A program made the position numbers and the translations under genes. 41,578 nucleotides of DNA, taken from Candidatus Chazhemtobacterium aquaticus (GTDB lineage: Bacteria > Patescibacteriota > Microgenomatia > UBA1400 > Chazhemtobacteraceae). Of the stretch, positions 25,135 through 41,578 are shown piece by piece (within the stretch, counting starts at the first letter, position 1; the number at the start of each line of letters is the position of its first letter). The notes under the pieces were generated by a model. It was not told the origin of the DNA. It saw only the letters and a program-made list of their open reading frames with translations, and made no database searches. The stretch lies in assembly GCF_009936135.1 (NCBI RefSeq), contig NZ_CP047901.1, forward strand, positions 759,927-801,504. The letters run 5' to 3'.

Positions 25135-25899
25135 ATGTCCATCACCAAACTTATCCACCTGACACACCGTATCCCAATCCGCCTCCTTCTTCTCTCTTCC
25201 TTTCTCACTCTTCTTCTCTCACCCACTCTCTCTCTTGCCGACAATCTTCGCTCTCCCGGATATGAAATCAGAATGAGTACCATTAATGTTACCGGCGGAC
25301 GCAAAGAAAGTGGTGGTTACACACTTACTGATACAGTTGGTCAAACCGTTCAAGGACAATTCGACTCAACCGGCTATACTATTAAAGCCGGTTTCCAGTA
25401 CATCCATACTTTAGTCCCCTTTACTTTTACCATCTCAGATCTTGATATTGATCTAGGCTACCTTATTCCCAACGCCGCCTCCACTGCATCCCACAACCTA
25501 AGCGTCCGGGTTGGCTCTGCCTTTGGTTATGGTGTCTCCGCTATTGCCGATCACCCTCTCCAAAACACTGCTGCCGCCCAGATCCCTGACACCAGCTGTG
25601 ACCCGGCCACTCCTTGTAGCTTAAACGATGCCAATATCTGGACCTCCACCACCAGCTACGGCTTTGGCTACAATATGGCCGGAGACGATGTCAATACCAC
25701 TGACTTTGTCAACTCCACTTACTTTCGTCCCTTCCCCAGTGCCTCTTTTGGTCACTCACCTGTTACCGTCATGAGCCGTACCGGTTCTGCCAACGACACC
25801 TCTACCGCTACCGTCACCTACAAGGTCTTAGTCGACGCCACCCAAGAATCAGGTCAATACACCAATATCATTCAGTACATCGCCACCCCCAGCTTTTAA
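25135..25899 (+). CDS. Secreted beta-rich surface protein, module 1
   Basis: This 254-residue protein has a signal peptide (about 1-35, ending SLSLA) and no other membrane helix. The mature part is rich in Thr, Ser, Asn and Gly and probably all beta. Its C-terminal domain is homologous to that of the 486-aa protein at 26949-28409. Both share a W-T-x(6)-G-F-G-Y motif with a Cys pair upstream, and end in nearly parallel strands (SGQYTNIIQYIATPSF here, AGDYENVIIYRATASF there). It is followed by a DUF916-like membrane protein, an order reminiscent of WxL/WxL-interacting pairs in Firmicutes. Function is inferred only. Confidence 0.78.
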   Translation: MSITKLIHLTHRIPIRLLLLSSFLTLLLSPTLSLADNLRSPGYEIRMSTINVTGGRKESGGYTLTDTVGQTVQGQFDSTGYTIKAGFQYIHTLVPFTFTISDLDIDLGYLIPNAASTASHNLSVRVGSAFGYGVSAIADHPLQNTAAAQIPDTSCDPATPCSLNDANIWTSTTSYGFGYNMAGDDVNTTDFVNSTYFRPFPSASFGHSPVTVMSRTGSANDTSTATVTYKVLVDATQESGQYTNIIQYIATPSF

Positions 25900-25918: not shown

Positions 25919-26884
25919 ATGTCATCACTCAAACACCTCACCATTCTTCTTCTTTTACTTCTAATCTCTCTCTTCTCTCCTTCCCCCATTCACGCTCAGC
26001 AAACCTACGGTCTATCTATCGACCCGCCTCTGGTTCGCATCATGATCAAACCAGGCAAAACCATCACCCAAGCCATTAATGTTACCAATCACAGCCTCTC
26101 ACCCATCACTCTCACTCCGCGCCTTGTACCCTTTACCGCCAAAGACAATCAAGGCCTTCCTGATCTCCATCCAGAACTCGCTCCCCCATGGCTTGACCTC
26201 TTCATGCTCGCCAACTCCGAGATCTCGCTTAATCAACCCTTCATTATCCCCGCCAACAAAAGCCAACAACTAGTCCTAAGCCTAAAAGTACCGGAAAACT
26301 TCCCACCCCAAGACATCTATGCCAACCTGCTAGTCAGCAGTGATCCCTTAACCACCAATCCATCTGGTCATCAACTCTCCGCCTCAATCGGTACCAACTT
26401 ACTCATAACTATCACCCAGACAGAGCTGCTACCAACATATCTTAAAATCTCCACCTTCGAACTAGAAAAACCCCCCATCTTCAAACTAGGATCCATCCAT
26501 TTCTACGACAATCTCAATCCCCTCAACCTCAAGGTTATCGTTACCAACACTAGCCCCTTTCTTACTACCACTGACGGCCAACTCCTACTCACTCAACAAG
26601 CTACCATCCACTCTGCCCAACCCCTCTACCCCACCTACATCCTCTCCAACTCACAACGCGAGCTGACCGCCTCACCCTCAGGCTCATTAAGCCTTAATCC
26701 CAAACTCAACTACCTCGGCCGCTACAACGCCCACTTAGTCCTCCACACCCCCACCGACAGCTATACTGCTGACCTAGAACTCTTCTTCTTTCCCTTCAAG
26801 ATCACTCTTAGCCTTCTCATTTTCAGCCTTATTCTCCTCACTGTCTTCAAACAATCAAGAGTCCCTAAAACTAACTCAGATTAA
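25919..26884 (+). CDS. DUF916-like membrane-anchored surface protein, module 1
   Basis: This 321-residue protein has a signal peptide (about 1-26), a beta-sandwich N-terminal domain starting YGLSIDPPLVRIMIKPGKTI, a second beta domain, and a C-terminal membrane helix (about 289-312) followed by a short basic tail. The first domain's pattern of P-G-x-T followed by V-T-N resembles DUF916 of WxL-interacting proteins, which bind peptidoglycan and WxL proteins. It is a paralogue of the protein at 28416-29399; both share the G-R-Y-x-A-x-L strand before the FFP-F/I start of the membrane helix. The call rests on pattern, not on a profile search. Confidence 0.75.
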   Translation: MSSLKHLTILLLLLLISLFSPSPIHAQQTYGLSIDPPLVRIMIKPGKTITQAINVTNHSLSPITLTPRLVPFTAKDNQGLPDLHPELAPPWLDLFMLANSEISLNQPFIIPANKSQQLVLSLKVPENFPPQDIYANLLVSSDPLTTNPSGHQLSASIGTNLLITITQTELLPTYLKISTFELEKPPIFKLGSIHFYDNLNPLNLKVIVTNTSPFLTTTDGQLLLTQQATIHSAQPLYPTYILSNSQRELTASPSGSLSLNPKLNYLGRYNAHLVLHTPTDSYTADLELFFFPFKITLSLLIFSLILLTVFKQSRVPKTNSD

Positions 26885-26887
26885 CCC

Positions 26888-26917
26888 TTGACAAGCATAT
26901 CTAACTATCACCATAAT
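26888..26917 (+). promoter_or_regulatory. Promoter TTGACA-18-CATAAT
   Basis: A consensus -35 (26888-26893) and a -10 CATAAT (26912-26917) are 18 nt apart. The next gene starts about 25-30 nt after the predicted start site, so module 2 may be transcribed on its own. Confidence 0.5.
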
Positions 26918-26948
26918 CAAACTAGATTATTAACTGGTCTAAAATTTC

Positions 26949-28409
26949 GTGTCGTTGCCTAAAATCAATTACAAAGCCACCCTCCTTCTTTTCATCCTCG
27001 CCTTAATCAATATCGGTTTCTTTCTCAAGCCCTCTGTCACCGAGTCTGCCAACCTCACCCAAGTCAAAGACACTCTCCAAACCTCCCGCCTTTCCTTTGC
27101 CGGACGGGTTAAATCACCCACCGCCGCCGGCTCTTCCCACGTCTGGCTCTACACCACCGGCACCGACGAGTTCTACTCCATCTCTACCGTCAACCTTCAC
27201 GCCGGCGACTCCGTCACTATTGGTTCTGGAACATATACCATAGTAGACATCATTGACGACGACGAGTTCACAGTTACCCCAGTCCTGGCTGCCGGAGACG
27301 CCGACGACACCGACCCCATCTACTACAAGAGCAAAGCCCAACACGTCATCACCTTTAACACCGCCTCAGCCATCGCCAACGGCTATTTCACTGTCCTCAT
27401 TCCTGCCAACACCACTACCTCCACCTCTAACAACGGCTCACCCGATGACTCCGGTTTTGACTTCAACGACACCGACTACCCCACCGATCCTGATATCACC
27501 GTTACCGCCAACAATGTCACCGGCTATACCTTCGTTACCGGCGTCGCCACTCCTTCCAGTGAGGCTTCCTGTAACTCCCTCTACTCCACTGGCTCATACC
27601 ATTGTTTTGAGGTGCACTACTCTGGTTCTGGTGCTGTTGGAACCGGTATCACCATCACCATCGGTTCTACTGGAGGCACCACCACCCCCATCCTTCCCTC
27701 ACCCAATAGTAGCCACAACGTTGGTACCGCTGACTCCTACACTTTCCAGTTAAGACACTACGACGGCAGCAACAACCTCATCGACCAAACCAACGGTAAA
27801 ATTGCCTTGATTGAGGCCGTCCGTGTTACTGCTACTGTCGATCCAACCATCACCTTCACCATCGCTGGTGTTACTGCTGATACTGGCACCTACTGCGGCG
27901 TCACCAGAACTGCTGCTTCTGTTGACTCTACCGCCTACTCCGTCCCCTTCGGTTCCTTAAGCTTAAACACCTTCGCTGATGCTGTCCAAAACTTAACCGT
28001 TTCCACCAATGCCAACTACGGCTACGTAGTCACCGCTGCCGAAGACGATGAACTCGGTAAAGATGGCGCCACCACTCCCTTCATTGCCGACACTACCTGT
28101 AACTCAGGCCCCTGTACCATCTCCGCAGAACAGGAGTGGACTACCGCCACCAACAATGGCTTTGGCTACTCACTCCAAAACGTCGACGCTGCCTCTATAT
28201 CCTTTGAATACAACACCGGTGCTGGTACCTTTAAGGCCCGACCTTTTGCCAATCTAGCCGACACCGAGACTCCTCAAACCCTCTTCTCCTCCAGTGCCGT
28301 CGCCGACTCGCAAAATGCCTACGTCTGTTATCGCCTTTCCGTTGGTGCTACCCAAGCTGCCGGCGATTACGAAAACGTCATCATTTATCGAGCCACCGCC
28401 TCGTTCTAA
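26949..28409 (+). CDS. Large secreted beta-rich surface protein, module 2
   Basis: This 486-residue protein starts with GTG and has an N-terminal hydrophobic segment (about 10-27) that acts as signal or anchor. Several beta-rich domains full of Thr, Ser, Gly and Asp follow. The last domain (about 300-486) is homologous to the 254-aa protein of module 1, including the paired cysteines and the terminal strand. The extra N-terminal domains (about 45-290) have no match I know. It is followed 6 nt later by its DUF916-like partner, so translation is probably coupled. Likely a cell-surface or matrix component. Confidence 0.75.
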   Translation: MSLPKINYKATLLLFILALINIGFFLKPSVTESANLTQVKDTLQTSRLSFAGRVKSPTAAGSSHVWLYTTGTDEFYSISTVNLHAGDSVTIGSGTYTIVDIIDDDEFTVTPVLAAGDADDTDPIYYKSKAQHVITFNTASAIANGYFTVLIPANTTTSTSNNGSPDDSGFDFNDTDYPTDPDITVTANNVTGYTFVTGVATPSSEASCNSLYSTGSYHCFEVHYSGSGAVGTGITITIGSTGGTTTPILPSPNSSHNVGTADSYTFQLRHYDGSNNLIDQTNGKIALIEAVRVTATVDPTITFTIAGVTADTGTYCGVTRTAASVDSTAYSVPFGSLSLNTFADAVQNLTVSTNANYGYVVTAAEDDELGKDGATTPFIADTTCNSGPCTISAEQEWTTATNNGFGYSLQNVDAASISFEYNTGAGTFKARPFANLADTETPQTLFSSSAVADSQNAYVCYRLSVGATQAAGDYENVIIYRATASF

Positions 28410-28415
28410 TCCAAC

Positions 28416-29399
28416 ATGAATCGTCACCTGCCCCTATCCACTACTCTTGTTACTCTAGCCCTAGCCCTCTCCTCTATTACCCCCGCTTTTGCCCAAACCA
28501 CCTCCTCCACTACCGCCATCCCTCCCCGACTCGAGCTTGAAATCAATCCAGGCGAAACCATTACCCAGGAAATCAAGGTCAGGAATGAAACCGATGCTGT
28601 TCAGTACTACACCGTTTTTGTCGAAGACTTCATCGTTACCGACCAGATCGGCACTCCCATCCCTGTCAGCCAAGCCACCTCCGGTCGTTGGTCACTCGCC
28701 AGCTGGATTACTGCCCCCAAAGTCATTCCCGTTGACCCCAAACAAACTCAGGTGCTTAACTTAACCATCACTGCTCCCCAAAATGCTCTCCCTGGTGGTC
28801 ACTACGCCATGATTACCTACCAACCTGGTGAACCCAAAGCAGGTGAACTTAAAGACACCGGTTCCCTCATTGGTCACCGCACCGGTACCCTTCTCTACGT
28901 CACCGTACCAGGCGACATTACGCAGGACGCCTTAGTTAAGAAGTTCTCTACTGACAAATTCCATGAATACGGTCCCCTAGACTTCCTTACCATCATCACC
29001 AACCTCTCCGACATCCACATCCTCCCCCAAGGTCAAATCACCATCAAGGATATCTTTGGCCGCGCTGTTGCCAACCTGGAGGTTGATATGGGCAACGTCT
29101 TTCCCGAAGCTGATCGTCAAAACATCACCACCTGGAATCAGAAATGGGGCTATGGTCGCTACTCCGCCAACCTTGAACTAGCTTATGGCTCAACTGGTCA
29201 ACTCTTGAATGCCACCATCTACTTCTGGTTCTTCCCTATTCGCATCGTCATCTCAATCCTAGTCTTGATCATCGCCATCCTTCTCCTCACTCTTCTTCTC
29301 CGTCGCCGCCGCCAATTCCACGAGCAAGAGCTTGAGCAAGAAGTTGAACAACTGCGCCAGGAGCTTGAGAACAAGCACAAAGACCAACCCAAGAAGTAG
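28416..29399 (+). CDS. DUF916-like membrane-anchored surface protein, module 2
   Basis: This 327-residue protein has a signal peptide (about 1-26, ending TPAFA), a DUF916-like beta-sandwich (PPRLELEINPGETITQEIKV), a second beta domain and a membrane helix (about 277-299). It ends in a strongly charged helix of about 30 residues with Arg, Gln and Glu, predicted to be a cytoplasmic coiled coil. It is a paralogue of the protein at 25919-26884, which lacks the coiled-coil tail. Pairing with the secreted protein just upstream suggests that it holds that protein at the cell surface. Confidence 0.78.
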   Translation: MNRHLPLSTTLVTLALALSSITPAFAQTTSSTTAIPPRLELEINPGETITQEIKVRNETDAVQYYTVFVEDFIVTDQIGTPIPVSQATSGRWSLASWITAPKVIPVDPKQTQVLNLTITAPQNALPGGHYAMITYQPGEPKAGELKDTGSLIGHRTGTLLYVTVPGDITQDALVKKFSTDKFHEYGPLDFLTIITNLSDIHILPQGQITIKDIFGRAVANLEVDMGNVFPEADRQNITTWNQKWGYGRYSANLELAYGSTGQLLNATIYFWFFPIRIVISILVLIIAILLLTLLLRRRRQFHEQELEQEVEQLRQELENKHKDQPKK

Positions 29400-29456
29400 T
29401 AAGCTACCTAAAAGAAGCTAAGGCATTCCCCTCCTCGCTTATATATACTAGTCTTA

Positions 29457-31034
29457 ATGCCCAGTCTGCCACGCTGCCTTACCATTCTTGTCTTACCCCT
29501 TTTCTCTCTCCTTTTCTCTCCTCAACCAGCCTTGGCTCTAGAAAACCCCGCCTCCCACTCAGCCCAGATCCAAGCCACAGTTCCCGAGTTTAAGGTCGAT
29601 GCCCCCATCTTAATTGCTCCCTCAAACTACAGCCTCACCAACAACCCCACCGAACCTTTCGAGTGGCTCCAGGCCGTTTCAGTCCAAGGTATCTCGTATC
29701 ACACCTTCTACCTTGATGGTCAGCCCATCATCCCCAAAATCCTCACCTCCATTCCCACCATCAACACGCCAGACTACTTCATCTACCATCTTAATGGCCG
29801 CCTCTATCTCACCCTTAAAAATCCCATGGCCGAAGGCTCTCATACCTGGCAAGTCTCAGCCACTAGCACTGGCGGCACCACTGCCTACTCCGACCTCTGG
29901 CACTTTCTCATTGACTCAACCCTACCCCCCATCATTCTCCGCCAAGTCGATCAAAACCAGATGTACTGGGCTACTCATGATCCCAACAGCATCCCTCCCT
30001 ACGAGGATCGCCACCTGATTGTCACCACCCCAGATCCGCTCATTTTAGGCCAAGTTGAAGCTCCCGTTAGCTTTAAATACGCCCTCATCTGCCCCCTTAA
30101 CGCTCCTGCCGGCTGTAGAGAACAATCCATTACTGTCTCTGAAGATGATGGCAACTTTGCCCATCGCTTTACTGATCTTGAGCCTCACTACATCTACTTC
30201 GTCTACCTTATAGCCACTGACCTAGCTGGTAACATCACCTACTTTCCCGTCTTCACCATCACCTATACTCCTAAAAAACCCATCATTCCTCTACCTCCCA
30301 TCCCAGGCATCATCACTCCTACTCCAACTCCACCTCTTCCCATAACCCCCATTACTCCAGAACCAACCCCGCTTCCACCTCTACCTCCCACTCCCACTCC
30401 GACCCCATCCCTCCCACCAGTTGCCATACCCGATTACTCCCGTCTCCTTCACTCACTTATAGTCTTTGGCCTACTGCTTCATTTAAGTCTTAGCATCCTC
30501 GGAGCCAGAATCAAGTTCTCCCAATCCCTCCGCTTTATCACTCGCCTTCTAATCCCTATTACACGAGGCCAAAAACACTTTACCAACCCCTACGCTACCC
30601 TAGAAATCTACCATCCCGATCACTTAAACAAAGTCTTAAAATACATCTTCGCCAACCCCTTTGGCGCTTACTCACTTCCCAGCAATCTACCCGAAATCAT
30701 TTTTGTTCGCTTCACTCGTCCCGGGCTTAATCTCCTTACCTGGCTCAACAAGCCTGATCAGCTTCCTCAATATCTTTACCTTGAAAAATTAGATGATCCT
30801 CCTTTCTCAGACAAACTGCGCCGCTTTCTCTTCCACTCAAGGCTAATTGCCATCCTCATCGCCATCATCACCTCAGCTTACGCCGTTATGGTTTCCTCAT
30901 ATCTCTACTTTGTCATCTATCTACTCATAAGCCTGCTTCTCTTTACCAACCAGTATCTGCTCCCTCACTTCCTAAAACCAAACCCCAATGCCAAACCATT
31001 ACCATCATCACCAAAGACATTAAAGAATAACTAG
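29457..31034 (+). CDS. Surface protein with a proline-rich spacer and C-terminal membrane region
   Basis: This 525-residue protein has a signal peptide (about 1-27, ending PALA). Two beta-rich, Fn3-like regions follow: about 48-155, with GSHTWQVSATSTGGTTAYSD, and about 195-272, with FTDLEPHYIYFVYLIATDLA. A Pro/Thr/Ile spacer (about 273-325) comes next, then a membrane helix (331-350), a soluble region of about 100 residues and two more membrane helices near 452-495. The layout suggests an outer sensor or anchor whose inner part faces the cytoplasm. ATG 29457 lies 7 nt after a TATACT box. It follows module 2 and is likely part of the same surface system. Confidence 0.75.
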   Translation: MPSLPRCLTILVLPLFSLLFSPQPALALENPASHSAQIQATVPEFKVDAPILIAPSNYSLTNNPTEPFEWLQAVSVQGISYHTFYLDGQPIIPKILTSIPTINTPDYFIYHLNGRLYLTLKNPMAEGSHTWQVSATSTGGTTAYSDLWHFLIDSTLPPIILRQVDQNQMYWATHDPNSIPPYEDRHLIVTTPDPLILGQVEAPVSFKYALICPLNAPAGCREQSITVSEDDGNFAHRFTDLEPHYIYFVYLIATDLAGNITYFPVFTITYTPKKPIIPLPPIPGIITPTPTPPLPITPITPEPTPLPPLPPTPTPTPSLPPVAIPDYSRLLHSLIVFGLLLHLSLSILGARIKFSQSLRFITRLLIPITRGQKHFTNPYATLEIYHPDHLNKVLKYIFANPFGAYSLPSNLPEIIFVRFTRPGLNLLTWLNKPDQLPQYLYLEKLDDPPFSDKLRRFLFHSRLIAILIAIITSAYAVMVSSYLYFVIYLLISLLLFTNQYLLPHFLKPNPNAKPLPSSPKTLKNN

Positions 31035-31181: not shown

Positions 31182-32471
31182 ATGAACAATCAAATCAAGA
31201 CAAAAATCGCCCCAAATCTCTTAACCTCAACCCTAAAAGAGCAATACGAGTCTTTTGAAACTCGTAACCTGGGAGTACCAAGAGAGGTTCTGGAAGAACT
31301 TAAAACCGCTATTAACGCTCCCCCAGTTCTAGTCATTACCGGACTACGTAGGGTGGGAAAATCAACGCTACTAGCTCAGATAGCCAATAGGTATCTCAAG
31401 GACAACTACTACTTTGTCAACTTTGAAGATGAACGGCTACTTAACTTTCAAGTTAGTGACTTTGATCTTCTGCACGAAACACTGATTAGCTTGTTTGGTG
31501 AGAAAAAGGCGTTTCTGTTTGACGAAATCCAAAACGTACCGGGGTGGGAGCGATTTGTACGGAGGCTGCATGATCAAGGATATAAGTTCATTGTCACCGG
31601 ATCTAATGCCTCATTACTCAGTCAGGAACTAGGAACAAGGTTAACCGGACGCTCAATACGAGTAGAGCTTTTCCCGTTTTCATTTCAAGAATATTTAAAT
31701 TTCAAAAATATTAAGACACCAAACCTTAACGTCCTAACAACCAAACAACGTGGCAACTTACGCAAACTCGCCAATGAATATCTCAGCTACGGCGGCATTC
31801 CAGATGCCCTTAAATACCCAGAACTTGAAGTTCACAAAACATTGTATGATGACATCCTCTATCGTGATATTGCCACTCGCTACAAACTCGACAACGTCAG
31901 GGGCTTAAAAGAACTATCCTTTTATCTGCTCAGCAACACAGCCAACCTGGTGTCATTCAACAAGCTCAAAGACCTCCTGAAACTTGGCAGCGTCAACACA
32001 GTCATCAACTATATCGACTATCTGGAAAACAGCTGGCTCTTTTTTATGGTTAACAAATACACCTACTCCATTAAAAAACAACAAATTGCTGCCAAAAAGA
32101 TCTACAGCATCGATACAGGTTTAACACAATCTGTCGGCTTCTCTTTTTCAGAGAATAAAGGCAAGTTAATGGAAAACGCCGTTTTCTTGCAACTACGCAG
32201 AAAACACTCAGATGTGTACTACTATAAAACCACCCAAGATTATGAAGTTGATTTCTATCTTCCCAAAGAAGGGTCATTGATTCAGGTCGCACAACACTTT
32301 GATACAGCAGAAACACGAGACAGGGAGGTAAGAGCCTTGGTAAAAGCGGCCAACGAGCAGCAAAAAGCCAGCCATTTCATAGTTGTTACTGAAAGTGAAA
32401 AAAACGAGTTTGAACAAGGAAAGATAAAAATTCAAACAGTCCCCTTGTACGAATGGCTACTTAAAACCTAA
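31182..32471 (+). CDS. AAA ATPase with DUF4143 C-terminal domain
   Basis: This 429-residue protein belongs to the AAA_14/DUF4143 family. The Walker A motif is TGLRRVGKSTLL (about 53-64), Walker B is AFLFDEIQNV (about 105-114), and a sensor-like FIVTGSNASLLS follows. The C-terminal half has the DUF4143 pattern, including KIYSIDTGLTQSV and YKTTQDYEVDFYL, a PD-(D/E)xK-like E-V-D-F core. The family is widespread in Bacteroidetes, archaea and mobile regions and its role is unclear. The plus-strand message is rich in G and A, against the local skew, and the gene has its own promoter and a possible operator, so recent transfer is likely. Confidence 0.9.
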   Translation: MNNQIKTKIAPNLLTSTLKEQYESFETRNLGVPREVLEELKTAINAPPVLVITGLRRVGKSTLLAQIANRYLKDNYYFVNFEDERLLNFQVSDFDLLHETLISLFGEKKAFLFDEIQNVPGWERFVRRLHDQGYKFIVTGSNASLLSQELGTRLTGRSIRVELFPFSFQEYLNFKNIKTPNLNVLTTKQRGNLRKLANEYLSYGGIPDALKYPELEVHKTLYDDILYRDIATRYKLDNVRGLKELSFYLLSNTANLVSFNKLKDLLKLGSVNTVINYIDYLENSWLFFMVNKYTYSIKKQQIAAKKIYSIDTGLTQSVGFSFSENKGKLMENAVFLQLRRKHSDVYYYKTTQDYEVDFYLPKEGSLIQVAQHFDTAETRDREVRALVKAANEQQKASHFIVVTESEKNEFEQGKIKIQTVPLYEWLLKT

Positions 32472-33607
32472 GCCGCACTCTCCCTTCCCTAATTGCTTGC
32501 CCACATATTTAAAGTAGGCTTCAAGAACTACTCCCTCATCAACATCAATATCTCAAGACTCACCATTTCTCAAACACCCAAACCATAAATCTTAAAATAT
32601 CCAAATCCAATCATACCCCTACGGGTATAGCGCCGTCTCTCCTTTCCTGTCACAATCAATATCACGAAACACCTTTATAAATACTCCTAACATCACCTTG
32701 ACAAGCTCCAAAGCGCTTTCTAGAGGCATTCAGGCACGCCTTGAGGCTAGGCTAGCCCAACGTCAAAGTTGCTCTTACCAACCATCACTCAGACCCAATA
32801 TCCTCTAGTAAACATAGTCCTCAATCTTTCTCAACCAATAGCGTCATTTGCTCCTCCAAAACGCTACATACAAAACCATACAAACTATATCGTCCCTCAA
32901 ACCCCTATCAACCTGAAGATAAAACCCCAAAAACCCTCTAAAACCACTCGTTTTAGCCTCCCTCCCAAAGCCAGCCCACCCAACCAAAAACACTTAACAC
33001 CTATCATCGCTCTTTTTTTCATTTTTAAACTCTTATCACTCACCCAAACCATTTGCTAATAACGTCATAAATAAGCGTGAATCTTAATCAGTTAAAAATA
33101 CGGAGATTTTACATCAATAAACAACCAACCTTAATGATTTTTAACCCTAACCAATCCCATAACAAAATATTCTCGATTTCTAATCCCCCACATTAACTCC
33201 CAACTAGATCGATTTCGTGCCTAAATAGCCTCAAACCAACACAAAAACTCCTAAAAAATCTCGTATCTCACTGCCGTCGTACTTAACCCTATCATTCTAT
33301 ATCATTTTTCCTTGTGGATAACCCCTTTACACACCCCCAAAAACCTGCGGTAATCGACTACTCTCACAACTCTATTACCTCTCTCCCCTAGCACAAAAGA
33401 ATAGCGTTTTGCATTTCCGCATTGTAATTCACTCTCCATTTTTTCCACAAACATGCCTATTACCCACCCCTATATTCACCGCAAAAACTACTCCAATTCC
33501 TGTAAGTTATCCACTTGACACTAATATATAGTACTCATAGGCTGTATAAAGCATATAAATTTGTCTAAAGCAGCCTTAATTAATCAATTAACGCAAAACC
33601 CACTAAC
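32472..33607. other. G-poor intergenic desert, 1.1 kb
   Basis: No gene is supported. The plus strand is poor in G and stops are few, so a frame at 32769-33059 is open but shows no domain and I do not call it. A TTGACA occurs at 32699-32704. A 17-nt sequence (33351-33367) recurs at 33615-33631 inside the next small gene. Three DnaA-box-like sites cluster in the last 300 nt. Confidence 0.6.
33313..33515. promoter_or_regulatory. Cluster of DnaA-box-like 9-mers
   Basis: TGTGGATAA at 33313-33321 is a perfect reverse-strand DnaA box. TTTTCCACA at 33441-33449 and TTATCCACT at 33507-33515 are one-mismatch matches. The last one touches a TTGACA -35 (33515-33520). Three sites in 200 nt of AT-rich DNA could mean DnaA control of the next genes. 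dnaA, dnaN and a skew switch are missing, so an origin is less likely. Confidence 0.3.
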
Positions 33608-33751
33608 ATGCAAATAATCGACTACTCTCACCAACCTTCTTCCTCCTCAAGCAAAGCCTCAACCCACCCCTCACCAGTACTTGAGACCATAACAGCCGCC
33701 ATGATCTTCATCCTGCCGGCTCTTATTCTTTTCCTGTTATCAACTAACTAA
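33608..33751 (+). CDS. Small single-span membrane protein, 47 aa
   Basis: This short frame encodes a Ser/His/Pro-rich N-terminal half (about 1-24) and one clear membrane helix (about 28-45: ITAAMIFILPALILFLL). The gene lies 27 nt before the giant surface protein gene in the same direction, so they may share a transcript. Its first codons overlap the second copy of the 17-nt direct repeat found upstream. No Shine-Dalgarno or clear -10 sits at 6 nt. The helix and the position support it, but the length makes it uncertain. Confidence 0.45.
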   Translation: MQIIDYSHQPSSSSSKASTHPSPVLETITAAMIFILPALILFLLSTN

Positions 33752-33778: not shown

Positions 33779-36004
33779 ATGGAGACCTTAGTCAATCAAT
33801 TCAAGAGCTTCCTTCTCGAACTCCCTTCCTCTCGCCAAGGAGGTAAGAAAGGACTCTCTAAGGTCTCCGTCAAAAACTACCTCTCTGATATTCGTCGCTT
33901 TCTTGACTGGCTCTCCCAATATCAACCTCAAATCTCCTCAGCCATTCCCCAACGTTTAAGCAGCGACCACTTCCAAGCCTACCTTGACTTCCTTACCCAT
34001 CAAGATCTTCCCCACTCCACCATCTCCCGCCACTTCTCCTCGCTTCGCCGCTTCGCCACTTTTATCGAAATCGTCTATCACCAACCACCTCTCATAATCC
34101 CCACCATTACCTCACCTGACTCTACCCCCAAACCTGAACCTACTAGCATCCAAACCTCATCACCTAACCTGCTCTCTTCTTTCTCCCAGCATCTCAAAGA
34201 CCAGCAAAAATCCGCCTCAACTGTAAGAAACTACCTCTCCGATATCCGCCACTTCCTCGCCTGGGTTGATCAACACCCAGACCTTAAAACCCTTCCTTCT
34301 GCTCAACAACTCGACTCAAGCCTAGAATCAGACGTCGTTGACCAATACTCCCACTATCTTGAACTTACCAACACCCCCTCCTCTACCTCATCCCGCCGCT
34401 TAAGCAGCCTTAACATCTTCACTCAATTCGCCACCAATCAAGGACTTGTTACTCCCAAAGTCAAACCAGAAACCAACTCTCCCAGGCTTAAGCCCATTCC
34501 CGCTCTCTCCTGGCTTAAACCCAAGACTACCTCTCGCCAAGGTTTTAATCTAAATCTACCCAGCTTCATTCAAAAACCCATCACTCGTCTTACCTCATCA
34601 CCCGTATATAGAAGCTACCACCAACTCCCCTTCACTCCATATCTTCATCTAGCCTTACTTGTTCTCTTTACCTCCGCCTTTGCTCTCTTCGGTTTCCGCC
34701 AGATCATCATCCAAAGTGAGCGCATATCAGCCTACCCTTCTACTCCCAATCGACCCACCCGCCAACTCTCTTTCCAAGGCCGTTTAACCGATTCCTCCGG
34801 TACCCCAATCGTTACGCCCATAAACGCCACCTTTAAGCTCTGGGATCAAGAAACAGGCGGAACCCAAGGCATTTGTAGCGGTGGTGCCGGTGAAGACTGT
34901 CTTTACTCAACCACCACTTGTAGCGTTGATCCAGATCAAGACGGTATTTTTAACGTTCTTTTAGGTGATGGTGCCTGTGGATCAGAAATCCCCGCCGATG
35001 TCTTTACCGAAAACACCGCCGTCTGGCTTGAAGTCGAGGTCGCCACCGAGACTCTTACCCCTCGCCAACCCATTGCCACCGTTGCTTACGCTCTTAACTC
35101 AGAAACAGTCTCCGGTATCCCCGTCTCAGCCTCCGGCTCTGCCACCGTCAACACTCTCTTCTTCATGAACAGCTCCGGAGAAATTGTCTTAGGCGAACAA
35201 AACCCCTCTATAGTGGCCGACTCCGGCAACTTCACTCTCCAAGGTGAGGCTCTCACCCTCTCCACTACTCCCTTCTCCGAGGGTGACATCACCATCGCCC
35301 CCGATGGTATCGGTCAAGTCAACTTCATTGGTGGCACCACCACCGATGACTTCATCCGTGTTGTTAACGCCAACCTCACCACCGGCAGCCTCATCTCCGG
35401 CTATGTTGGCAATAACAACAACACAGGAGAACTTCTCCGTCTTTCCTCCGGCTCCAGCGAAACCGATCGCTTCGTCGTCACCACTGGAGGTCAAACCACC
35501 ATCGACGCCTTAGCTGGTGGCAAATCAGCCTTCATCGTCAACCAACTAAACTCAGGCCCCATCTTCACCGCTTCAGCCTCAGGTACTCCCAAATTCACCA
35601 TCAACAACTCAGGTACCATTACCCTAGCCAACAACACCATCATCACTGATGACACCAACTACACCAGATTCTCCAGGGGTATTGCTGTTGGTAGCAACGA
35701 AACCTACTACTTCAACTCCTCTGGCAACATCAACGCCAACAATCTTACCCTCTCCGGCACCACCACCCTCAACGGCCTTACCTACACCTGGCCCTCATCA
35801 CACAACTCCTCTGGATATGTCTTAAGTAACAATGGCTCAGGTACTCTCTCCTGGGTAGATCCAGCTGCTGCAGCTGCTGGTAGCATCTACTGGTTACAGA
35901 GTGATGGAGCGGTATATCCCAAAAACGCTACTGTTGATTTACTAGTAGGTGGTAACTCAACTGCTTCTGCTAAGTTTGCCATTAACTCTACCCTAGGTGC
36001 TTAA
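33779..36004 (+). CDS. Giant surface protein, N-terminal part: two recombinase core-binding domains, membrane helix, tail-fibre-like repeats
   Basis: Residues 1-100 and 128-222 are two related SAM-like core-binding domains of tyrosine recombinases; both carry V-x-N-Y-L-S-D-I-R-x-F-L and a later S-R/S-x-x-S-L-x-x-F block. The catalytic Arg/His/Tyr domain is absent. A Pro/Lys-rich linker leads to one membrane helix (about 288-308). The exported part begins with the RQLSFQGRLTDSSGTPI domain, known from bacterial surface and tail-fibre proteins, and continues into Gly/Thr/Asn repeats. The frame ends at 36004 only because a single base is missing relative to a near-identical repeat at 41166-41578, so this is probably the front of a much longer gene. 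ATG 33779 gives the full first domain. Confidence 0.85.
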   Translation: METLVNQFKSFLLELPSSRQGGKKGLSKVSVKNYLSDIRRFLDWLSQYQPQISSAIPQRLSSDHFQAYLDFLTHQDLPHSTISRHFSSLRRFATFIEIVYHQPPLIIPTITSPDSTPKPEPTSIQTSSPNLLSSFSQHLKDQQKSASTVRNYLSDIRHFLAWVDQHPDLKTLPSAQQLDSSLESDVVDQYSHYLELTNTPSSTSSRRLSSLNIFTQFATNQGLVTPKVKPETNSPRLKPIPALSWLKPKTTSRQGFNLNLPSFIQKPITRLTSSPVYRSYHQLPFTPYLHLALLVLFTSAFALFGFRQIIIQSERISAYPSTPNRPTRQLSFQGRLTDSSGTPIVTPINATFKLWDQETGGTQGICSGGAGEDCLYSTTTCSVDPDQDGIFNVLLGDGACGSEIPADVFTENTAVWLEVEVATETLTPRQPIATVAYALNSETVSGIPVSASGSATVNTLFFMNSSGEIVLGEQNPSIVADSGNFTLQGEALTLSTTPFSEGDITIAPDGIGQVNFIGGTTTDDFIRVVNANLTTGSLISGYVGNNNNTGELLRLSSGSSETDRFVVTTGGQTTIDALAGGKSAFIVNQLNSGPIFTASASGTPKFTINNSGTITLANNTIITDDTNYTRFSRGIAVGSNETYYFNSSGNINANNLTLSGTTTLNGLTYTWPSSHNSSGYVLSNNGSGTLSWVDPAAAAAGSIYWLQSDGAVYPKNATVDLLVGGNSTASAKFAINSTLGA

Positions 36005-36182
36005 CTCTTAAGGACTCTTCTCTTAACACTCTCTTCTCTGTATCTCCCTCAGGTCTAGTCTCTAATGTTCCCTCCTCCTTTACTTCCTCTGGTAATGTCT
36101 CCCTTGCTTACGATCTACTTCTAACTAATCAGACCTCTTCCTCCATCAAGAGTAATGCTCCCCTAACCATTGAAGCTGGTGG
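35771..36182 (+). repeat. Direct repeat of about 410 bp, left copy
   Basis: This segment is nearly identical to 41166-41578, with few substitutions. It lacks one base near 35999 that the right copy has (GGT-GCTTAA here, GGTAGCTTAA there). That gap shifts the frame and creates the stop at 36004. Confidence 0.9.
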
Positions 36183-39100
36183 AGTTTTGAGAGTAACCAT
36201 CTCACTCTAAAGACCTACAACCAAGGTAATATCCTCTTAGATTCTGTCTTAACCCAGTTGTCTGGTGGTTTGTCTGTATCCTCCTACGCCACCATCTCTT
36301 CATCTCTGGCTCTTGGTACTTCATCTGCTCCAGCAGGAGTTGGTCACCTAAGTATGAGTGGTAACTTAAATACCAGTGGCAACTTAACTGTTGGTGGTAC
36401 TACTACTCTGGGAGGATTAACCTACACCTGGCCGGGATCACAAGCCAACAACTATGTTCTCTCCACCAATGGCTCAGGTACTCTCTCCTGGGTAGATCCA
36501 GCATCAGCTGTTGCCTCTACCATCTACTGGACACAAACTGCAGGTGCATTGCATCCCAAGAACTCTACTGTTGATCTTTTGGTGGGTAGTAATGCCTCAG
36601 CTTCTGCCATCTTCAGAGTCGATACCTCTACTGGAAACTTAATTTCAGTCGCTGGTAGTAATTGGATGCCAAGATCCAACTCAACTACTGCTTTAAACAT
36701 TGCCAATGCTGCAGGCTCACCATTTGTTACCTTTGATACCACCAACCAGAGAGTCGGAATTGGTATTACTACCCCCAGAACCAAACTCCATATCGCCGAC
36801 ACCGCGGTTGGAGGAAATATCGACGGTCTAAAGATTAGCAATCTAGATACCTCCACCAACAGCTCTGCTCGTATCGTCTTTGGAGTCTCAACTGTCAGTG
36901 AAATCTACTCTGCCGGCATCAGTGCCATCAGAACCAACAGCCCCGCTGCTCACGCCACCGATCTTACCTTCTCAACCTGCGCTGGTAGTTGTACTACCGA
37001 AGGTAATATGGCCGAAAGACTCCGCCTCACCTCCATCGGCAACCTCGGCCTTGGCCTAACCTCACCCACAGGCAAGCTTCATATATACGGTGACTACGCT
37101 GGTAATGCTTCAGCTATCATTGATAGTAGAAACTCTAGTGACATCCTCACTGCTTCAGCCTCTGGTACACCTCGTCTTACCATTCTTAACAATGGTAATC
37201 TTCAATTCCATCAAGCCAGTATCATTACTACTACCACTGGTGCACTAACTCTTGCTCCTGACTCTGCCTCCGATATCCAGTTCTACTCCTCCAGTAACAC
37301 TCTCTCTTCATCTGGTAACTTAACTCTGGCAGGTAACATTAATCTAACCTCAGGTGATCTTCAAACTGGTGGTACTAGCAGAATTACTAACGCTGGCAAC
37401 CTAACCAATATTGGTACTACCCAATTTAATGGTCTAACCTACACCTGGCCAGGATCACAAACCAACAACTACGTACTCTCCACCAATGGCTCAGGTACTC
37501 TCTCCTGGGTAGATCCAGCATCAGCTGTTGCTTCTACCATCTACTGGACACAAACAGCAGGAGCATTGCATCCCAAGAACGCTACTGTTGATTTGTTAGT
37601 TGGTAGTAATGCAACAGCCTCTGCCATCTTCAGAGTTGATGCTACTACTGGTAACCTTGTTTCTCTCTCTGGAGCCAAGTGGATGCCAAGATCAGACTCA
37701 ACCACTGCTCTAAACATTGCCAATGCTACAGGCTCTCCTTTTGTTACCTTTGATACTACTAATCAAAGGTTGGGGATTGGTACCACCTCTCCCACCGCTA
37801 CCCTCCACCTAGCCGGCAATGCTCTGTTTCAAAACACGGTTGACTCCACCTCGGCCTTTAGAGTTAATAATGCTGCTGGCACCACTTTCCTTAACCTAGA
37901 CACTACCAATACCCTCGCTAGTATCCAAGGAGCCAATACCGAAGCAGTGCTCTCTGCTGAAAAAGTTACTAATGGCAACTTCTCTTCCAATCCTAGCGGA
38001 GACTGGACATACTCAAGTCCCTGGAATTGGGATGGAGCCGAGATGGATCACACCGGCACCACCGGAGCTATTGACACAGTCGCCAATGGCGGTATCTTAA
38101 TGAATCACGGCGGTACTGGATACACTGCTGGTAATGTTTTAACCCTCACCAACGGAGCTAATGATGCTCAGGTTACTGTTTCTACCGTAGATGCTAATGG
38201 AGCCATCACTGCATGGACTCTCTCCAATGCAGGAACAGCCTGTACTGTTAATAGTAGTGTGGCGGTTACTGGTGGTACTGGCTCAGGAGCCAACTTCAAT
38301 ATCGTTAAACTAGTAGATAGTGCTGCTACACTCTCTCAAAACGTCTCTGTCAGTAGTGGCAACAACTACCAAGTTACCTACACCATCAGGAACCGAACCG
38401 CTGGACAAGTAAAACTTACTCTAGGTGGAGTAGCTGGTCATTATGTATTAGCTAATGGCACCTACACTCAGGTCATTGCCGCCACTGGTACTGGCAACTT
38501 AATCTTTACCCCCACCGTTGACTTTACTGGCTCTATCGATGACATCTCGGTTAAACAAATCACTGCCTCCGCTCCAACTCTGGCTCTCAACGCCTCATCG
38601 GGAGCATTAGGACTAGAGTTAAGAACTGGTGGAGCTAATCTCCACAATGTCCTCCTGGGCGATGAGGCTGGCCGCTCTAACACCACTGGTGCCAACAACA
38701 ACTTTTTAGGGTCTCAATCTGGCTACTCTAACACCACTGGTTACTCCAACAACTTTTTAGGATATCAATCTGGCTACTCTAACACCACTGGTTACTTCAA
38801 CAACTTTTTAGGACAACAATCTGGCCGCTCTAACACCACTGGTGTTCACAACAACTTTTTGGGGTATCAATCTGGCTACTCTAACACCACTGGTTACCTC
38901 AACAACTTTTTAGGGTCTCAATCTGGCTACTCTAACACCACTGGTTACTTCAACGACTTTTTAGGGAATCAGGCTGGGTATTACAATCAAACAGGTACTG
39001 GCAATCTTGCCATTGGCTATCGCTCCTTTGGCTATGGTACTGGAGCTGCCTTTACTGGAGCTGACTACAACACCATCATTGGTTACGAAGCTGGATACTC

Positions 39101-41578
39101 TTTGAGGGCTAATAGTGATAACAATGTCTTCATTGGTTACAGGGCTGGTTACTCCGAAACTGGCAGTAACAAACTCTACCTTGCCAACTCCTCTACAACA
39201 TCACTCATCTATGGTGATTTTAGTACCGGAGTAGTTGGTCTTGGTGGCACCTCTGCTCACTCCAACCCTTATGTGTATATCAGTAATACTGGAAATGTTG
39301 GGATTGGTACTACCTCCCCCACCTCCCTCCTTTCAGTGGGTAGCACCTCGCAGTTCCAAGTCAACTCATCTGGACACATAGTGGCCATTGGTAATGTCGC
39401 TCACACCATTGATGATGTCTCTGGTAACTTAACCCTTACTAGTAACTCTTCTACCATCTCTCTTAATGACAATGTTACCTTTGCTGGTACCACCACCTTC
39501 AACAACCTCACATACACCTGGCCCGCTTCTCACGAAGCTGCCGGATACGTTCTAACCAATAACGGCTCAGGTACTCTAACCTGGGTTGATGTCGCCGCTG
39601 CCACTGGTGGCACCATCTACTGGCATCAAGCCGGTGGTGTTGTCTACCCCAAGAATGACACTGTTGATCTACTAGTTGGTGGATCAGCTACCTCATCTGC
39701 TAAGTTTGCTTTCATTAATGTAAATAGTGGTACTCCAACCGCTAGTATCTCAGGAACAACCGCTAATGTTGCTACATATCTAACTGGTGAAGGTAATTTA
39801 GCTACTACTAATATGGCTCCTCTTACCATTGGCGGCTCAACCACTGGCAGCATTTCTCTGGCTAACAACACTGCCATCACCGGCAACCTCACCACATCCG
39901 GTAACGCTGACATCGATGGCACTCTGACCTCAGGTACTGGCAATGCCTTCCAGGTAGACACTACCGGCAATCTTTCCTCTACTGGCACCACTGGTATCAC
40001 TCTTTCTGGAGCTGGTGCAGATCTAACCTTCTCCGGAACTGGTGATCATGATATAACCGCTTCTGCTGGCACCCTCCGCTTAGGTGCTGCCACACTCACT
40101 GGTAGCATTACTGGTAACTCCCAGAGCATCACCGGCCTCTCTCAACTCACTGTCGACAATCTTCGCCTTGATGGCAATACCATAGACACTACCTCAGGCA
40201 ATTTAACTCTCGACTCCACTACTGGCCAAGTCGACGTCAATGACAACCTAAACATCACCGGTTCACTCACTGTTGGCACTACTACAGAATTCAACAACAT
40301 CACCTACACCTGGCCTGCTTCCCAATCAACCAACTATGTTCTCTCCACCAATGGTTCAGGTACTCTCTCCTGGGTTGATCCAGCCGGAGCCGCATCTGGA
40401 GCCATCTACTGGGCACAATCAGGCGGTGCTCTTTACCCCAAGAACGCTACTGTTGATTTACTTGTTGGAAGTTCAGCCTCAGCTTCTGCCATCTTCAGAG
40501 TCGATACCTCTACCGGAAACTTAATCTCAGTCGCTGGTAGTAAGTGGATGCCAAGATCAGACTCTACTACTGCCCTAAACATTGCCAATGCTGCCGGTAC
40601 CTCTTTCGTTACCTTTGATACCACCAACCAGAGAGTTGGTATTGGCACAAGCTCGCCTTCAGCCCCTCTCCATGTTGACTCCGGTACCTGGGAATCCATC
40701 TTTTCGGACGGCACTATTGATCTCAAACACTCCAACGGTAACACCTACGGCAAAATCGGCAACATGGGTGGAACATACGGCCTCCAATCCTATGTCTCTT
40801 ACCCCCTAGTCTTTAGAACCAACAATCTTGAAAGAGTTCGCATTGACTGGACCAACGGCAACGTCGGCATCGGCACCACCTCTCCCAGTGAGAAACTAGA
40901 CGTAGCAGGTAATGCTACTGTATCAGGAAATCTAACTTTCACCGGTAGTGCTTCTACCATTGCCAACAGGTTAATGCAACCTTTAACCATTGGTGATTCA
41001 CAAACTGGTAACCTTCGATTCTTCTCCTCCAGCAACACTCTCTCCTCCACTGGTAACCTAACTCTGGCAGGAAACATTAATCTAACCTCTGGCGATCTTC
41101 AGACTGGTGGTACTAGCAGAATTACCAACACTGGTAACTTAACCAACATTGGTACTACCCAGTTTAACGGTCTTACCTACACCTGGCCCTCATCACACAA
41201 CTCCTCTGGATATATCTTAAGTAACAATGGCTCAGGTACTCTCTCCTGGGTAGATCCAGCTACTGCTGCTGCTGGTAGCATCTACTGGTTACAGAGTGAT
41301 GGAGCGGTATATCCCAAAAACGCTACTGTTGATTTACTAGTAGGTGGTAACTCAACTGCTTCTGCTAAGTTTGCCATTAACTCTACCCTAGGTAGCTTAA
41401 CTCTTAAGGACTCTTCTCTTAACACTCTCTTCTCTGTATCTCCCTCAGGTCTAGTCTCTAATGTTCCCTCCTCCTTTACTTCCTCTGGTAATGTCTCCCT
41501 TGCTTACGATCTACTTCTAACTAATCAGACCTCTTCCTCCATCAAGAGTAATGCTCCCCTAACCATTGAAGCTGGTGA
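36174..41578 (+). CDS. Giant surface protein, continuing part in another frame (runs off the right edge)
   Basis: From 36174 to the window end one frame stays open for 5.4 kb without a stop, and its sequence continues the same repeat types as the 741-aa part. The first possible ATG is 36354, but homologous sequence begins near 36189, so it is best read as the remainder of the same gene after two frame changes. It contains GLTYTWP-type modules, V-G-I-G-x-x-x-P motifs common in tail fibres and bacterial adhesins, and a jelly-roll-like domain at about 37970-38560. Seven tandem 17-residue repeats follow at 38667-39023. All is probably extracellular. It could also be a separate gene or a decaying pseudogene. 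Confidence 0.75.
36414..36780 (+). repeat. GLTYTWP module, copy B
   Basis: Unit of about 120 codons beginning G-L-T-Y-T-W-P, running through SGTLSWVDPAS, an IYW and PKN block, and W-M-P-R-S, and ending V-G-I-G. It is highly similar to copies C and E at the DNA level. Confidence 0.85.
37431..37794 (+). repeat. GLTYTWP module, copy C
   Basis: Same unit as copy B, with long identical stretches such as the segment encoding NGSGTLSWVDPASAVAST. It ends with IGTTSP. Confidence 0.85.
38667..39023 (+). repeat. Seven tandem 51-bp repeats (17 residues each)
   Basis: Six close copies and one degenerate copy of the unit S-G-Y-S-N-T-T-G-x-x-N-N-F-L-G-x-Q run in frame without gaps. The spaced N, G and F/L positions resemble the stacked turns of trimeric-adhesin head domains. 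Copies differ mainly at positions 3, 9, 10 and 16. Confidence 0.92.
39504..39715 (+). repeat. GLTYTWP module, shorter copy D
   Basis: Begins NLTYTWPASH and keeps the SGTLTWVD and Y-P-K-N-D-T-V-D-L-L-V-G parts but diverges afterwards. It is a more distant copy. Confidence 0.75.
40296..40659 (+). repeat. GLTYTWP module, copy E
   Basis: Begins NITYTWPASQ and follows copies B and C closely through WMPRSDSTTALNIANAAG to VGIGTSSP. Confidence 0.85.
41166..41578 (+). repeat. Direct repeat of about 410 bp, right copy (cut by window end)
   Basis: Near-identical counterpart of 35771-36182, 5.4 kb downstream. Here the frame is intact through the region where the left copy has a missing base. The block before it (about 41030-41165) also matches 37300-37430. 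Confidence 0.9.

Follow-up and report, generated by a model that had tools for sequence, protein, structure and literature searches.

The catalytic domain of tyrosine recombinases carries the signature R..K..HxxR..Y. In Cre, K43 and M44 of helix B and Q90 and Q94 of helix D influence DNA specificity (PMC6486577). A recombinase fold can also be found in a protein without recombinase activity, as in MrpR, the master repressor of the Bacillus prophage SPbeta (PMC10516654). Among membrane proteins, CadC, which has a single helix, is able to find its DNA site and to cluster there (PMC6320335). We describe here a gene in which two tandem recombinase core-binding (CB, 'SAM-like') domains are joined to one predicted membrane helix and a giant surface fibre, and we hold, with about as much confidence as doubt, that its product is a membrane-tethered DNA-binding protein with the topology of ToxR and CadC, which uses its CB domains on its own promoter. 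The gene comes from the Microgenomates, which are ultra-small, probably host-associated and uncultured; to our knowledge, little is known in the Patescibacteria about host attachment and its control with few regulators.

The window, that is, the whole stretch of DNA analysed, comprises 41,578 nt of Candidatus Chazhemtobacterium aquaticus (NZ_CP047901.1, positions 759,927-801,504; assembly GCF_009936135.1). The genome is a single contig of 801,504 bases, and the window takes up its final 41.6 kb, to C1:801504. The parts of the fibre gene, in window positions, are:

33779..36004, + strand: ORF1 (741 aa), with CB1, CB2, linker, membrane helix, SFQGRLTD domain and fibre start; ended by a frameshift
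33779..34090, + strand: CB1, first recombinase core-binding domain (aa 1-104), by Pfam match and AlphaFold
34154..34462, + strand: CB2, second recombinase core-binding domain (aa 126-228), by Pfam match and AlphaFold
34463..34633, + strand: basic linker (aa 229-285), 9 K/R vs 1 D/E
34634..34708, + strand: predicted single transmembrane helix (aa 286-310), by AlphaFold model and hydrophobic segment
34754..35113, + strand: LSFQGRLTD domain, predicted first extracellular domain, weakly like the N-terminal domain of the Bdellovibrio mosaic adhesive trimer (MAT) fibres
35998..36182, + strand: stretch with two one-base deletions vs a second copy, source of the stop at 36004
36258..41578, + strand: remaining fibre in the window, about 1773 aa, running over the contig ends to C1:6829

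The Pfam family Phage_int_SAM_1 (PF02899) matches ORF1 in two stretches, over its cut-off (E=2.2e-18), and it is matched by 12 of the 12 members of the family alignment. Two helical bundles are seen in the AlphaFold models (341 and 232 residues), and most of their pLDDT values are 85-96. Pfam, family alignment and bundles agree on the two tandem tyrosine-recombinase CB domains that a preliminary description, made from the sequence, had proposed. The catalytic domain was said there to be missing, and indeed ORF1 has no match to PF00589 nor a catalytic domain of any other kind. In the window genome, ordinary recombinase genes are present separately, PF00589 being matched by only two ORFs, neither of them part of the fibre gene. 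The Foldseek ranking is headed by an integron integrase, Cre, XerA and an integrase N-terminal domain. Their probabilities are near 1, but their E-values are non-significant (best 0.07); the suggested structural likeness to recombinases thus stands in rank and probability but not in E-value, and it is the sequence profiles that carry the identification. A phmmer search of the window CB pair against PDB gave no match, and a CB profile search of PDB found solved recombinases and integrase domains by sequence. The best PDB match to this profile is chain 14 of 9i5v, a 401-residue chain labelled ribosome-associated inhibitor RaiA, which suggests that either a recombinase-like domain is present in that chain or the label was mixed up. 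When the Cre positions are mapped by motif, a mapping of our own, the residues equivalent to K43, M44, Q90 and Q94 in 106 CB domains of the family are K/R in 93%, N in 85%, R in 98% and S/T in 96%, respectively. Taken over 188 CB domains, duplicate loci included, the net charge is basic, with a median of +3.7. The window pair is unequal, CB1 being basic (pI 9.7) and CB2 not (pI 6.4).

The basic linker lies on the N-terminal side of the membrane helix, and the topology is thus predicted to be N-inside, with a single helix and a large outer part. The helix (about residues 286-310) is the only hydrophobic segment in the 741 + 1773 residues read, so by prediction the preliminary view of one membrane helix with a cytoplasmic N-terminus holds. 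Against the MAT N-terminal domain (NF053851), the LSFQGRLTD domain gives E=7e-8 and 1.4e-6 in two relatives and 0.006 in the window, all scores being below 60 bits and hence below the family cut-off. The repeat motifs counted in the fibre are VGIGTTSP, NNFLG and similar ones.

Positions 33779-41578 had been read as one protein, which is right for the architecture but not for a single open frame. ORF1 stops at 36004 and, from the ORF reading, the fibre frame picks up again at 36258. A second copy of the deletion stretch, 395 bp long and about 99% identical, spans the contig ends, and compared with it the first copy, in the window, is short by one base near 35998 and by another near 36181. From 36258 the frame is free of stops to the contig end and then from C1:2 to 6829, which makes 4,049 residues and about 4,900 for the giant fibre in total. 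As the frame is open across both contig ends, it fits a circular chromosome. The ends fall within the 395-base repeat, and the number of repeats and the frame at this place may depend on the assembly. An assembly chimera at the joint between domains and fibre was ruled out, since the whole architecture recurs in many genomes.

By profile search, relatives are found in 28 of the 53 genomes of the same order, a few weak matches possibly being ordinary recombinases. In the class they occur in at least 107 of 233 genomes: at least 81 have long ORFs or matches reaching the membrane helix (the profile also catches ordinary recombinases), and at least 26 have the short split form only, as classed by ORF length alone. 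These relatives include Collier-, Beckwith-, Shapiro-, Gottesman-, Roizman- and Levybacteria, all of them Microgenomates. Just one genome outside the class has a relative in a phylum-wide sample, and the matches outside the CPR are mostly ordinary recombinases with their catalytic domain. The search of the Patescibacteria that had been suggested for this architecture thus found it widespread in Microgenomates and almost nowhere else in the phylum. In 34 further genomes, picked largely because the CB search gave nothing or little there, the LSFQGRLTD domain is also mostly absent, and its clear cases sit after a CB domain, with the exception of one locus (L161), where a secreted form has a signal peptide and neither a CB domain nor the promoter element described below.

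Ahead of the fibre gene lie the following features:

33515..33520, + strand: -35-like box TTGACA of the presumed promoter, from the sequence
33544..33569, + strand: direct-repeat element GTATAAA-GC-ATATAAA-TTT-GTCTAAA, the window copy of a class-wide promoter element
33608..33751, + strand: small ORF, 47 aa, with a C-terminal membrane helix, conserved in Collierbacteria, between element and fibre gene

In 38 of the 60 upstream regions, the sequence (G/A)T(A/C)TAA(T/C) is directly repeated every 9 or 10 bp just behind the -10 box (9 bp in 20 genes, 10 bp in 21), vs none on the reverse strand and about 0.6 per period, or about 1 in all, expected by chance, the motif having been derived from the same sequences in which its excess was counted. 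In the relatives the element typically begins 30-42 nt past TTGAC. It is unrecognisable in the other 22 genes, several split and single-CB lineages among them. Searches of whole genomes place it almost exclusively at the fibre gene: all 10 sites of the 10-bp form in 20 genomes of the order and 8 of the 9 sites of the triple 9-bp form in 20 genomes of the class, or 18 of 19 in total. The element thus has no further conserved sites and no regulon, and it is this lack of a regulon that is the point of the searches, since few chance matches are expected for such patterns. Two genomes of the Collierbacteria family in which the fibre gene was not found (G010, G036) also lack a repeat site. Repeat number does not cleanly follow the number of CB domains, and when the repeat bases were compared with the CB residues at contact positions, no covariation emerged, the differences between lineages being dominant.

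Two other upstream patterns were observed. A second conserved element, ATTACCGC/GCGGTAAT, occurs in 19 of the 60 upstream regions, against 1.0 expected (e.g. L043, L050 and L098), at times as an inverted repeat directly ahead of the -35 box. A direct repeat TGAAA...TGAAA is present on the sense strand of 11 out of 29 upstream regions, against 1.2 expected (e.g. L021, L023, L046 and L053).

The repeats are strand-specific and close to the start of the transcript, as would be expected if they worked in the leader RNA, through translation control or attenuation and in a manner unrelated to the CB domains. In several relatives, however, the first repeat begins 1-2 nt past the -10 box, upstream of where transcription is expected to start; this speaks for DNA rather than RNA as the target and makes a leader RNA role very improbable in our judgement. 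One role that the preliminary description had envisaged for the CB domains is to tether the chromosome, or incoming DNA, to an envelope structure. With one helix as its anchor, a DNA-binding domain would indeed bring the DNA that it binds to the membrane, and CadC forms clusters there, at the place of its DNA site (PMC6320335). Here, however, there is essentially one site, and it is in the promoter of the fibre gene itself. The fibre gene is moreover about 217 kb from dnaA, thus not beside a dnaA-linked origin, and sequences resembling DnaA boxes in the window are not above chance level. Such tethering now seems improbable: the conserved residues of DNA-contact type, together with a dedicated element at the own promoter, point to action on that promoter rather than to general tethering of DNA.

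In many lineages CB2 is divided between two adjacent genes, always between its two helical hairpins, the first gene ending after hairpin 1 and the second encoding hairpin 2, the membrane helix and the fibre (L016, L046, L066, L068, L075, L076, L078, L096, L098, L101, L106, L108 and L119). In L016, L076, L078, L096, L101, L106, L108 and L119, the stop codon of the first gene abuts or overlaps the start codon of the second or is within a few bases of it. The halves are 100-400 bases apart in Beckwith-, Shapiro- and some other lineages, at times with a small ORF in between. Fused and split forms of CB2 are both present inside one family (f31). The fixed split point, the coupled genes and the co-occurrence of both forms argue for joint folding of the halves, whether these are on one chain or on two. 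Divided folds are rare in nature, and the split of one small domain between two genes, at the same point in many lineages, is such a case. An intron or ribozyme at this point was ruled out, as three relatives gave no Rfam match and many junctions resemble those of coupled genes. Just downstream of the first CB ORF in L079, L081, L083 and L077 comes a small ORF with a DPxxEGSPY-like motif; where the fibre gene is visible, this ORF precedes it.

This recurrent split bears on the main rival to promoter action, in which the CB domains no longer bind DNA but form a docking or assembly module at the fibre's inner foot, for a partner chain or a cytoplasmic adaptor, the element then belonging to a regulator that is unrelated and unlinked. 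In its favour, CB2, split at one place, often between coupled genes, and fused elsewhere, looks like a pair of chains that have to fold with each other, and in some lineages CB1 is degenerate or gone while CB2 and the membrane helix are kept. Against it, K/R, N and R are conserved at positions equivalent to DNA contacts, and the promoter element is confined to the gene that bears the CB domains. We thus consider this reading possible but doubtful, although a structural role may hold together with a role at the promoter. The protein-protein contacts that the preliminary description gave as its alternative also agree with the recurrent split of CB2.

The genes upstream of the fibre gene encode membrane and surface proteins, in an order that is similar in the relatives:

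25135..25899, + strand: PamT-like gene of the upstream cluster (NCBIfam NF058579, E=1.1e-11, 44.6 bits, cut-off 240)
25919-26884, + strand: upstream surface-cluster gene, in the conserved cluster 25919..31034
26949-28409, + strand: Pam-pilin-like gene, weak family match below cut-off
28416-29399, + strand: WxLIP-like gene, weak family match below cut-off
29457-31034, + strand: Big_13-like gene, weak family match below cut-off

The nearest described counterpart of these neighbours is the CPR Pam pilus (NF058579, NF058581), to which two of them are distant matches, one to PamT (44.6 vs 240 bits) and one to the C-terminal domain of the Pam pilin (24.5 vs 55 bits), all below the curated cut-offs; a search of the available literature for the CPR Pam pilus yielded nothing. 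In the window genome, a gene for an AAA_14/DUF4143 ATPase (31182-32471) stands between this cluster and the fibre gene. The small ORF behind the element has counterparts in Collierbacteria, so that in these and in the window a membrane protein of 44-66 residues is encoded between element and fibre gene. In several families (L039, L041, L042, L045, L046, L053 and L054), a gene for a PaaX-like regulator adjoins the fibre gene in the opposite direction, which makes it the obvious rival as binder. It was ruled out as the general binder of the element, since it is missing in 18 genomes of other families, all of which have the element. A regulator encoded elsewhere in the genome could nevertheless be the binder, which would speak against the reading that we prefer.

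That preferred reading, action of the fibre protein on its own promoter, can be put as follows. A giant surface fibre of Microgenomates would be held in the membrane by one helix, and its cytoplasmic end would be a DNA-binding module, made of two tandem CB domains whose catalytic partner has been lost. This module would recognise the tandem (G/A)T(A/C)TAA(T/C) repeats that directly follow the -10 box of the gene encoding it, and binding would regulate the production of the fibre, most likely by repressing it. In this way, assembly of the fibre outside the cell, or its contact with a host, may feed back to the DNA. One might speculate further, and more tentatively, that the fibre is the regulator of its own transcription throughout the class: the CB domains, as the first-made part of a chain of about 4,900 residues, would bind the promoter element perhaps while synthesis is still under way, fibre number or host contact would be read at the DNA, and in the split lineages the module would become complete once the two chains fold together. 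If true, this would be a direct link within one protein between cell surface and gene expression, class-wide, and a new use for recombinase core-binding domains.

The CB domain is the one found in Xer and integrase tyrosine recombinases (PF02899), with the conserved T-x-K/R-N-Y and T-x-x-R helices, but in contrast to these enzymes the fibre protein has tandem copies and no catalytic domain, and it continues into a membrane helix and the surface fibre. The long repeats of tail-fibre type and the weakly similar first extracellular domain recall the MAT fibres of Bdellovibrio (PMC10769870), although the match is below the NCBIfam cut-off and the part of that account cited here describes no cytoplasmic DNA-binding part in them (PMC10769870). 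As in MrpR, an origin in the recombinase fold goes with a repeated DNA element; MrpR, however, is soluble and has kept a degenerate catalytic domain, whereas the fibre protein has CB domains only, and the MrpR element lies in various intergenic regions of the prophage, whereas that of the fibre gene is essentially at one promoter (PMC10516654). In its predicted arrangement the fibre protein is closest to ToxR and CadC, with a putative DNA-binding part at a cytoplasmic N-terminus, one membrane helix and a C-terminal part outside. These regulators use a winged helix of the OmpR/PhoB type where the fibre protein has a pair of recombinase CB domains, and their outer part is a small sensor, whereas that of the fibre protein extends over thousands of residues.
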